Of a stretch of 64,000 nucleotides of DNA, positions 40,021 to 42,600 are shown piece after piece. The stretch spans positions 1,550,001-1,614,000 of the forward strand of contig NZ_CP054585.1 of the NCBI RefSeq assembly GCF_003721435.2, written 5' to 3'. Both the position numbers and the translations under genes were made by a program. Under the pieces are notes generated by a model, which saw only the letters and a list, made by a program, of their open reading frames with translations, had not been told where the DNA came from and made no database searches. The DNA comes from Halorubrum sp. CBA1229. Lineage in GTDB: Archaea; Halobacteriota; Halobacteria; Halobacteriales; Haloferacaceae. Each line of letters starts with the position of its first letter. Positions within the stretch are counted from its first letter, which is position 1.

Positions 40021-40239
40021 ATGCTCTCGCCCGGAAACCCCTACGTGCTGCCGTCGACGCTGGTCGCCGCGGCCGCGTACCTCGCCGCGACGCTGCTGAC
40101 GGACGCCTCGATCCTGATCCGGATCGGGCTCCTCGTCCTCCTCGCCGGCGTCGTTCCCATCGTCATCAACCGCCTCCTCGGCGGCTCGACCGCGGAGGCC
40201 GCGACAGAGGAGGGCGTCGAGGAGCCGCCCGAGGCGTGA
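40021..40239 (+). CDS. Small membrane protein between the pcc genes
   Basis: 72 residues with two hydrophobic helices (about 11-28 and 31-52) and an acidic tail. Family unknown to me. It is on the strand opposite to pccA and pccB. A strong TATA (GATATATAAG) begins directly after its stop. Confidence 0.7.
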   Translation: MLSPGNPYVLPSTLVAAAAYLAATLLTDASILIRIGLLVLLAGVVPIVINRLLGGSTAEAATEEGVEEPPEA

Positions 40240-40246
40240 CCACAGA

Positions 40247-40376
40247 TATATAAGCTGCCGAACGTATCTCCGAACGCACCCTGTGAAGGGTTCGCGTGGC
40301 GAGGCCCGCTCGGGCGCTCGCCGGGGGAATGCACGCGCTCGGGCGGTCTCCGTCCGGGGGCGGACGATTCTAAAAA
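40247..40376 (+). ncRNA. Candidate structured small RNA
   Basis: TATATAAG at 40247-40254 predicts a start near 40271-40276. The predicted transcript has hairpin 1 (CGAAC 40271-40275 with GTTCG 40290-40294, allowing an internal loop). Hairpin 2 pairs CGCGTG (about 40293-40298) with CACGCG (about 40332-40337), enclosing GGCGAG with CTCGCC and GCCCG with GGGC. Hairpin 3 is GTCCG with CGGAC near 40352-40365, then CTAAAAA. No ORF fits and both flanking genes converge on it. It could also be a bidirectional terminator. The RNA family is not recognised. Confidence 0.35.
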
Positions 40377-40427
40377 CCGGCGAGCGGCGGCGCCGTCGCG
40401 GGTATGACACCCTTCGGAAGCCGTCCC

Positions 40428-40784
40428 TCAGAAGCGGTCGGCGCGGCCGGCCGCGGTCCACGGGTCGGTCGGCGCGTTCTCCGGAACGCGGACCGACCGA
40501 TTGGTGAGCCGGTCGACCCGCCCGGCGAACGACCACCGCTCGCCGTCCCAGCCCTCGTCCGCGTCCTCGGCCGCGGCGGCCGCCGCGGCCAGCTCCCCGT
40601 CGCGGAGGTGCGCCGCGACCGCGGCGGCGATGGCGGCGGCCTCCGCGTCGTCGGCGTCGTCGGGAATCGCCAGCCCGTCGAGGACGGCGGCGACCGTCGG
40701 GCCGCGCGGATCGCTCTCCGGGTCGGTCGATCCGGCGTCCGGGTCGGAGGTGTCGCCGTCCGGGTCGGGGGTGTCGGCCGCCAT
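40428..40784 (-). CDS. pccX: Small acyl-CoA carboxylase subunit PccX
   Basis: 118 residues, acidic. The Asp/Pro/Ser-rich N-terminus is followed by helix [17 protein letters not shown] and an end segment [17 protein letters not shown], as in the third subunit of haloarchaeal propionyl-CoA carboxylase. The start overlaps the pccB stop (TGATG), and a downstream position is known for this small subunit. A longer frame over pccB is a shadow. Confidence 0.85.
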
Positions 40785-42328
40785 CAGATCGGGATGTTGC
40801 CGTGTTTCTTCTCGGGCTGGTCCGAGCGCTTCCCCTTCAGCATCTGGAGGTCGTCGATCAGCCGCGCGCGCGTCTCGGCGGGCTCGATCACGTCGTCGAC
40901 GAAGCCCCGGTCGGCGGCGCTGTACGGGTTCGCGAACTCCTCGCGGTACTCGTCGATGAGCTCCTGCCTGCGTGCGTCGGGGTCGTCGGCCGCCGCCAGC
41001 TCCTCGCGGTAGAGGACGTTGACGGCGCCCTTCGGCCCCATCACCGCGATCTCCGCGGTCGGCCACGCGTAGTTGACGTCGCCGCCGATGTGCTTCGACG
41101 ACATCACGCAGTAGGCGCCGCCGTACGCCTTCCGGGTGATCACGGTGAGCAGCGGGACCGTCGCCTCCGAGAAGGCGTACAGCAGCTTCGCGCCGTGGCG
41201 GATGATCCCGTTGTGCTCTTGGTCGGTGCCGGGCATGAACCCGGGCACGTCCTCGAAGGTGAGGATGGGGATGTTGAACGCGTCGCAGAAGCGGACGAAG
41301 CGCGCGCCCTTCTGGCTCGACTCGATGTCGAGGGTGCCGGCGTTCACGCGGGGGTTGTTGGCGACGATCCCGATTGAGTGGCCGTCGAGCCGCGCGAAGC
41401 CGACGACGACGTTCTTCGCGAAGTTCTCTTGGACCTCGAAGAAGGAGCCCTCGTCGACGACGCTGCCGATCACCTCCTTCATGTCGTACGGCTTCCGGGG
41501 CGCGTCAGGGACGATGTCGGCCAGCTCCTCGTCGGCGCGCTCGGGATCGTCCCACGGCTCGACGCGGGGCGGGTCTTCGACGTTGTTGGCGGGGAGATAC
41601 GAGAGCAGCCGCGCGATGTCGTCTAAGGCGTCCTCCTCGCTCTCCTCGGCGAAGTGGGCGACGCCCGAGGTCGACGTGTGGGTGACGGCGCCGCCGAGCT
41701 CCTCGAAGCTCACCTCCTCGCCCGTCACCGTCTCGATGACGTCCGGGCCGGTGATGAACATGTGCGAGGTGTCTTTCACCATGAACGTGAAGTCCGTGAT
41801 GGCGGGCGAGTACACCGCGCCGCCGGCGCACGGGCCCATGATCGCCGAGATCTGGGGGATCACGCCGGACGCCTCCGTGTTGCGCCGGAAGATCTCCGCG
41901 AAGCCGCCGAGCGAGGCGACCCCTTCCTGAATCCGGGCGCCGGCGGAGTCGTTGAGGCCGACGACGGGCGCGCCGACGTCCATCGCCTTGTCCATCACCT
42001 TGCACACCTTCTCGGCGAACACCTCGCCGAGCGAGCCGCCGAAGACGGTGAAGTCGTGCGCGAAGACGAACGTCTTCCGGCCGTTCACCTCGCCGTAGCC
42101 CGTGACGACGCCGTCGCCCGGGATCTGCTTTTCCTCCATCCCGAACTTGTGGGTCCGGTGGGTGCGGAACCGATCGAACTCGTGGAACGTCCCGTCGTCG
42201 AGGAAGTAGTCGATCCGCTCGCGCGCGGTCATCTTCCCCTTCTCGTGTTGGGACTCGATCCGGTCCTCACCGCCTCCCAGCGCCGCCCGATCGCGGCGCT
42301 CCCGGAGGTCCTCGATACGGTCGTCCAT
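40784..42328 (-). CDS. pccB: Propionyl/acetyl-CoA carboxylase carboxyltransferase subunit
   Basis: 514 residues from the ATG at 42328 (a GTG at 42334 is also possible). Crotonase-like carboxyltransferase: [28 protein letters not shown], the acyl-CoA pocket [14 protein letters not shown], the second half [32 protein letters not shown], and the C-terminal GNIPI. It transfers carboxyl from biotin to the acyl-CoA. It is in an operon with pccX. Confidence 0.95.
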
Positions 42329-42334
42329 CGTCAC

Positions 42335-42600
42335 GCCGGACCACCCTGAGTCATTACCTCGTGGGTCGGCGAGCGGCATCAAAAGGGTTCCCCTATCCGA
42401 CGTTTCGGCGTTCGACGCGCGTCGAAATCGGGGACCGCGTGGGGCCACTCGGCTTCCGCGGGCGACCTCCCGCCGTCTCCTCGGGCGGCCCCCCGCGACC
42501 CGCCGCTGTCTCTCTTGACTCCCGTCGGCGACCCCCCGCCGTCTCCTCTCGACCGCCCGCACGAGCCCTGTCGCCGGTTCACACGGGGACGGGCGGTTCG
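42335..42600. other. Non-coding region between pccB and rpl1
   Basis: No convincing gene. A 20-bp direct repeat with one mismatch (CGACCTCCCGCCGTCTCCTC at 42463, CGACCCCCCGCCGTCTCCTC at 42529) is present. CATCAAAAGGG (42377-42387), read on the minus strand, may hold the pccB TATA. Confidence 0.6.

Follow-up and report, generated by a model that had tools for sequence, protein, structure and literature searches.

What is transcribed from a strong TATA box that lies between two genes facing each other? The window, a 64-kb stretch (C1:1550001-1614000) of the 3.58-Mb genome G000, carries such an element (Table 1). A strong TATA box at this place had been proposed from the sequence-only reading of the window, and TATATAAG indeed has a single exact match there, counting both strands, with 0.01 expected. 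The flanking genes converge as had been claimed, so neither is able to use a plus-strand promoter at 40247. The upstream gene encodes a 72-aa small membrane-type protein that matched no Pfam or NCBIfam family; homologs occur in 48 of the 52 genomes of the genus. The downstream 118-aa ORF, which also matched no Pfam family, comes after a carboxyltransferase gene (40790-42343, minus strand) whose best model was mmdA, with a score below the mmdA cut-off. This carboxyltransferase is highly identical at the same locus in relatives, and the best of these are nearly all Halorubrum species. Named species with a copy of the element are H. coriense, H. sodomense, H. xinjiangense, H. californiense, and H. 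trapanicum. The tie of the element to a propionyl-CoA carboxylase locus, which had been suggested, looks positional only.

Table 1. Features of the element and of related sites elsewhere in the genome. Plain coordinates are window positions; L numbers denote loci, and G000:C1 gives the position in the genome of the window.
Feature	Position	Strand	Basis or remark
Upstream neighbor, 72-aa small membrane-type protein gene, synteny anchor	40021..40239	+	ORF list
CCACAGA, kept stretch 5' of TATA box	40240..40246	+	ACCACAG in the majority of the 28 copies aligned
TATA box TATATAAG	40247..40254	+	Exact word search
Predicted small RNA "RNA II", ends approximate	40273..40378	+	5' end predicted at TATA + 26; 3' end predicted
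Hairpin 1, ACGCACCCU-GUGA-AGGGU-UC-GCGU	40274..40297	+	Predicted fold; covariation
Hairpin 2, length varies between species	40298..40322	+	Predicted fold; two pairs changed on both sides
15-nt site GGGGGAATGCACGCG, exact reverse complement of RNA I	40323..40337	+	Sequence comparison
Hairpin 3, only in part of genus	40338..40358	+	Predicted fold; absent, e.g., in L021, L024-L026, L029
Downstream convergent neighbor, 118-aa ORF, after carboxyltransferase gene	40428..40784	-	ORF list
RNA I, candidate small RNA gene upstream of ilvA	L156:1880-2060 (G000:C1 about 935479-935659)	+ of L156	Sequence comparison
Type III 3'UTR-like copy, 159 nt after stop of DUF4382-type gene	L265:1131-1305 (G000:C1 about 2750130-2750304)		Sequence comparison
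GGGGGAATGCACGGA	L261:1286-1300 (G000:C1:902485)		~50-64 nt before glutaredoxin-like ORF, then peroxiredoxin-like ORF (glutaredoxin-like name judged from sequence)

The spacing of the promoter was compared in a set of 28 copies, defined by an 11-mer match together with the TATA word; three loci with the site or a close variant of it (L019, L023, and L129) were lost by this requirement. Immediately 5' of the TATA box, CCACAGA is at the position of a BRE and may act as one. The start of the TATA box is 28 nt from hairpin 1 in 26 of the 28 copies; the two exceptions have 26 and 31 nt. A promoter of its own at a fixed distance from the RNA is what would be expected of a small-RNA gene. In the same copies, anything between 66 and 122 nt separates the TATA box from the 15-nt site. 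It had also been claimed that the element holds no ORF. A mechanically called 74-aa ORF with a GTG start (40283-40507) does run across it, but the claim stands to the extent that no reading frame is conserved, since the TATA-to-site distance differs by 1 nt among relatives (76 and 77; 82 and 83). A translated leader peptide is disfavored, because copies differ in length by numbers of nucleotides not divisible by three.

The strand from 40270 to 40378 folds at -60.4 kcal/mol (z = -3.18), and one of 200 shuffles was as good. Hairpins had been expected after the TATA box, and the predicted fold contains three of them downstream of the predicted 5' end. A closing stem between CGCGTG (40293-40298) and CACGCG (40332-40337) had been expected as well; both words exist, but they are not paired with each other in the minimum-energy fold, and over 10 relatives 384 of 500 shuffles reached the same score. 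From the 28-copy set, alignments were made of 20 copies (A1), of 10 of the 12 A/C-type rows (A2, without L022 and L032), and of all 16 B-type rows (A3). In A2, 92.9% of the cells of hairpins 1 and 2 hold standard pairs and 10 cells are changed on both sides, a score that none of 500 shuffles attained. Compensatory substitutions among relatives, on which the sequence-only reading had made a small RNA depend, are present in A2 within a conserved RNA structure. The three hairpins pair in 96.3% of cells among the 16 closer copies of A3; in these close B-type copies no covariation beyond shuffles was found, and the changes are mainly from G-C to G-U.

Hairpin 3 is missing where the neighboring ORF comes close, and outside the site and hairpin 1 the sequence and length of RNA II vary freely. 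When RNA II is folded alone its site is partly paired, with a mean unpaired probability of 0.03-0.78 over GGGGGAAUG and of 0.30 in the window copy. Across the window, no Rfam family other than a tRNA reached its gathering threshold. The only match in L016 was a 16.5-bit chance match to sR53, outside the element, and no guide-RNA family was recognized there. An H/ACA or C/D guide RNA was rejected, as there was no Rfam match and an antisense role fits the site better. A sequence-only model built from 20 copies had hits with E < 1e-10 in 24 of the 52 genus genomes, one in each and at the same locus; the hit in G021 is displaced by ~1.6 kb from the 72-aa anchor. Taken with the compensatory changes and the fixed promoter spacing, these hits favor the small RNA that had been proposed.

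The most conserved part of the element is GGGGGAATGYRCGCG, and its 15-nt site is also found at a second locus. In all genus contexts read, GGGGGAATGCACGCG occurs upstream of an ilvA-type threonine dehydratase gene, whose product is a PLP enzyme with an ACT domain. The order on the strand of the candidate gene at this locus, which we call RNA I, is a conserved block, TTTCACTTTCACTCCGC, a TATA box, and then a 25-nt block, GCACGTCACACGCGTGCATTCCCCC, which is identical in 62 of 71 distinct contexts and lies 30 nt from the TATA box in 67 of the 71 and 31 nt in the other 4. Transcription from this TATA box would yield CGCGUGCAUUCCCCC, which is exactly the reverse complement of the RNA II site, and RNA I is predicted to be made from the GCACGTCACACGCG side upstream of ilvA. 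RNA II is thereby exactly complementary over 15 nt to a predicted RNA encoded elsewhere, as expected of a sponge. Allowing up to three mismatches, the 25-mer was found in 56 of 194 class genomes and 14 of 65 genera, all in the family of the window (f1). RNA I is presumably a regulatory small RNA. The literature consulted, mostly open-access main texts, describes neither RNA I nor RNA II.

The site is rare. GGGGGAATGY occurs four times in the whole 3.58-Mb genome G000 (reversed control, one), at RNA I, at RNA II, at the 3'UTR copy, and before the glutaredoxin-like ORF, and each of the four is complementary over 13 nt or more. Searched alone, the exact 15-mer pattern was found in 51 of the 52 genus genomes, often in two or three copies, and its reversed control gave none. 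In the RNA II region, the 15-nt site is present with up to three mismatches at 31 of 48 distinct anchored loci and missing from 17. We rejected a viral source for the site, taking the 10 matches among 2.9 million viral contigs as chance.

The 31 anchored copies, in which the site was not fixed by the search, vary in its interior only by C10T and A11G, with two more changes at the outer positions 1 and 15. A tree of the flanking DNA requires at least four changes at position 10 and three at position 11. Both C10T and A11G keep the pairing to RNA I as G-U; the 15-nt duplex with the natural variants has -28.5 to -31.5 kcal/mol, and five mismatching single changes give -24.8 to -27.1 kcal/mol. This retention of G-U pairing is suggestive, but transitions are common in any case and the independent events at these two positions are few. 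RNA I hardly varies, and true co-change is therefore not visible. G021, where the type III copy also has changes that are not G-U compatible, has an RNA II site that is truncated after GGGGGAATGC beside an intact RNA I block. The full RNA I-RNA II duplex has -44.7 kcal/mol versus -33.6 (sd 4.0) for shuffles; 9 of 1,000 shuffles and 4 of 1,000 random window stretches were as good, which is a modest gain in GC-rich sequence.

In our view RNA II is best explained as an antisense small RNA that is encoded in trans under a TATA promoter of its own and most likely serves as a sponge of RNA I, and we give this reading a probability of about 0.5. A small non-coding RNA II would be made from its own TATA promoter and would display GGGGGAAUGYRCGCG between hairpins 2 and 3. 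The site would pair in trans with RNA I over ~15 nt, comprising a C-rich stretch and the 3' arm of the RNA I 5' hairpin, and RNA I, once paired, would be sequestered or driven to decay. RNA II would in this way act as an antisense sponge that frees the targets of RNA I. Sequence comparison establishes that there are two conserved TATA-led units, that one is exactly antisense to the other, that the site is rare, and that its variation preserves the pairing; both RNAs are presumably transcribed and meet, and the direction of control and the targets of RNA I are likewise presumed.

The opposite direction of control is possible, if rather unlikely. RNA II would then be a target or effector of RNA I, which would switch RNA II and the 3'UTR copy off or stabilize them, and RNA II would act otherwise via its hairpins. 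Both the greater age and spread of RNA I (56/194 class genomes, 14/65 genera) compared with RNA II and the presence of the same site in 3'UTR-like position after a DUF4382 gene in the genus fit this alternative, but the free variation of RNA II beyond the site and hairpin 1 leaves little else to act. It is improbable that GGGGGAAUGYRCGCG, where it follows a hairpin, serves as the recognition motif of an RNA-binding protein and that RNA I matches it through a common DNA element and not by pairing. Such a motif would agree with the complementary arms that stand directly before the site in type II, in type III, and in the extra TATA-led copy. However, in RNA I it is the opposite strand that follows a conserved promoter, and changes in the site keep G-U pairing with RNA I.

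Two readings would dispense with a trans-acting RNA. That the element is a mere 3' end region of convergent genes, with hairpins that act as terminators or a leader in cis-antisense to the 118-aa ORF, we regard as quite improbable: it does lie between convergent stop codons, and in some species the site is within ~10 nt of the stop of the 118-aa ORF, but the strong TATA box stands at a fixed distance and the same 15 nt recur at unrelated loci. The least probable reading, with very little in its favor, is a protein-binding or recombination site that works at the DNA level and has no RNA function. The CACGCGTG palindrome at the RNA I locus would suit it, yet this palindrome is absent at the RNA II locus, and the fixed promoter spacing and the hairpin covariation also speak against it.

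One candidate target of RNA I came from other genera. Ten genomes from seven other genera contain 32 occurrences of GGGGGAATGY, and 30 of these sites were read. The RNA I loci, one per genome, account for ten of them, and seven are in the leader of one gene, which reads GUCUUACC-GGGGGAAUGYA..AUG (7/10 of these genomes). The gene behind the leader is cdrS (NCBIfam equivalog, 124 bits versus a cut-off of 100), with ftsZ next, as determined at the one of the seven loci that was searched. The match to RNA I in these cdrS leaders is 11-12 nt at the ribosome-binding position. Thirty cdrS leader loci were read in total, of 56 genomes with a match. Of the 26 Halorubrum leaders read, 24 have GGGGGAATA, one has GGGGGAATG, and one has GGGGGAGTA; their match to RNA I is mostly 8 nt, and it is only 8 nt in the genome of the window. 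Four cdrS leaders were read from other families of the order, in which the search for RNA I gave no match; GGGGGAAU occurs in none of these leaders and AGGGGAAT in one. The RNA I-cdrS duplex has -25.1 and -20.6 in two other genera, -14.4 in the genome of the window, and -11.9 and -11.4 in two genomes without RNA I.

The ribosome-binding site of cdrS-ftsZ2 is accordingly listed here as a candidate target of RNA I. The match is a lead and not proof, since a ribosome-binding site would be G-rich in any case and the seven leaders may descend from a single ancestor. The fuller scenario, in which RNA I masks the cdrS-ftsZ2 ribosome-binding site and the antisense RNAs of Halorubrum (RNA II, the 3'UTR copy, and the third TATA-led copy) sponge RNA I and release the division genes, we hold to be unlikely. 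If RNA I did cover the start of cdrS-ftsZ2, this would be a case of post-transcriptional control of archaeal cell division. As a separate observation, the cdrS leaders L302, L304, L306, L307, L308, L311, L321, and L323-L351 contain the palindrome GTAAGACGGTCGTCTTAC plus a GTAAGAC...GTCTTAC pair, which would form an RNA hairpin directly 5' of the ribosome-binding site.

RNA I was found only in f1, and Halobacterium, which we take to be outside this family, would in that case have a control of cdrS-ftsZ2 that RNA I does not explain. For Halobacterium cdrS-ftsZ2, the same operon as the best candidate target of RNA I, one report describes mRNA and ribosome occupancy that diverge and a control that is probably post-transcriptional (PMC8303175). 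The main texts of two CdrS papers (PMC8406309, PMC7439475) contain no mention of sRNA or small RNA by word search.

Sponges of small RNAs, or anti-sRNAs, are a known kind of regulator in bacteria. As in those systems, RNA II is a second RNA antisense to a small RNA, here presumed to be regulatory, and could titrate it; it differs from them in being archaeal and a stand-alone TATA-driven gene, with no Hfq dependence known and a function that is predicted. To our knowledge, partners have been identified for only a few small RNAs of Archaea. Titles and the beginnings of abstracts in the sponge literature yielded no archaeal sponge, and RNA II, if it is one, would be the first in Archaea known to us. 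Two small RNAs that are exactly antisense over 15 nt, one of them near-invariant across a family, make a clean and cheap genetic test possible.

Two haloarchaeal small RNAs invite comparison. As reported, sRNA132 of Haloferax volcanii is like RNA II in being intergenic, with its own TATA box, a length of ~100-140 nt, two stems and a single-stranded linker, and predicted base-pairing (PMC6560208). sRNA132 is reported only in Haloferax and with a pyrimidine-rich linker, whereas RNA II is from Halorubrum and has a G-rich site, a different locus, and different neighbors; the two are set apart by description, and sRNA132 was ruled out as a partner on locus and distribution (PMC6560208). SHOxi of H. 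volcanii is reported to be a non-coding small RNA that destabilizes its target via base pairing; compared by description, it is unlike RNA II in its location on plasmid pHV3 and its length of 254 nt (PMC12482152).

Further copies of the site were found outside the RNA I and RNA II loci. For the type III copy, matches of some kind, many of them weak, exist in 50 of 52 genomes, and the counts given here are for 30 loci fetched by their flank alone. The interior changes in these 30 loci are A7G, A11G, and C14T, all G-U compatible, with the exceptions of G2A together with G4A in G021 and C14G in L381; at the outer positions 1 and 15 there is no such restriction. The stretch after the DUF4382 gene has the arms CCCCCGTTGAAGCCGCGG / CCGCGGCTTCGGGG in many copies, followed by a hairpin and the GGGGGAATG site. 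A further TATA-led copy with the GGGGGAATGCACGCG site is present at another locus in two genus genomes (L284 and L285, at 395 and 1248, minus strand), in one of them between mevalonate-kinase-like and amidohydrolase-like genes, named from ORF sequence. The glutaredoxin-linked GGGGGAATGCACGGA copy had no counterpart in G004 within two mismatches. Several further GGGGGAATGY or RGGGGAATGYRCGYG sites in other genera were set aside, as they seem to lie in coding genes or repeats. Two genomes of another genus (L256 and L257) have AGGGGAATGCACGCG within an almost identical stretch, perhaps a mobile or repeated element.
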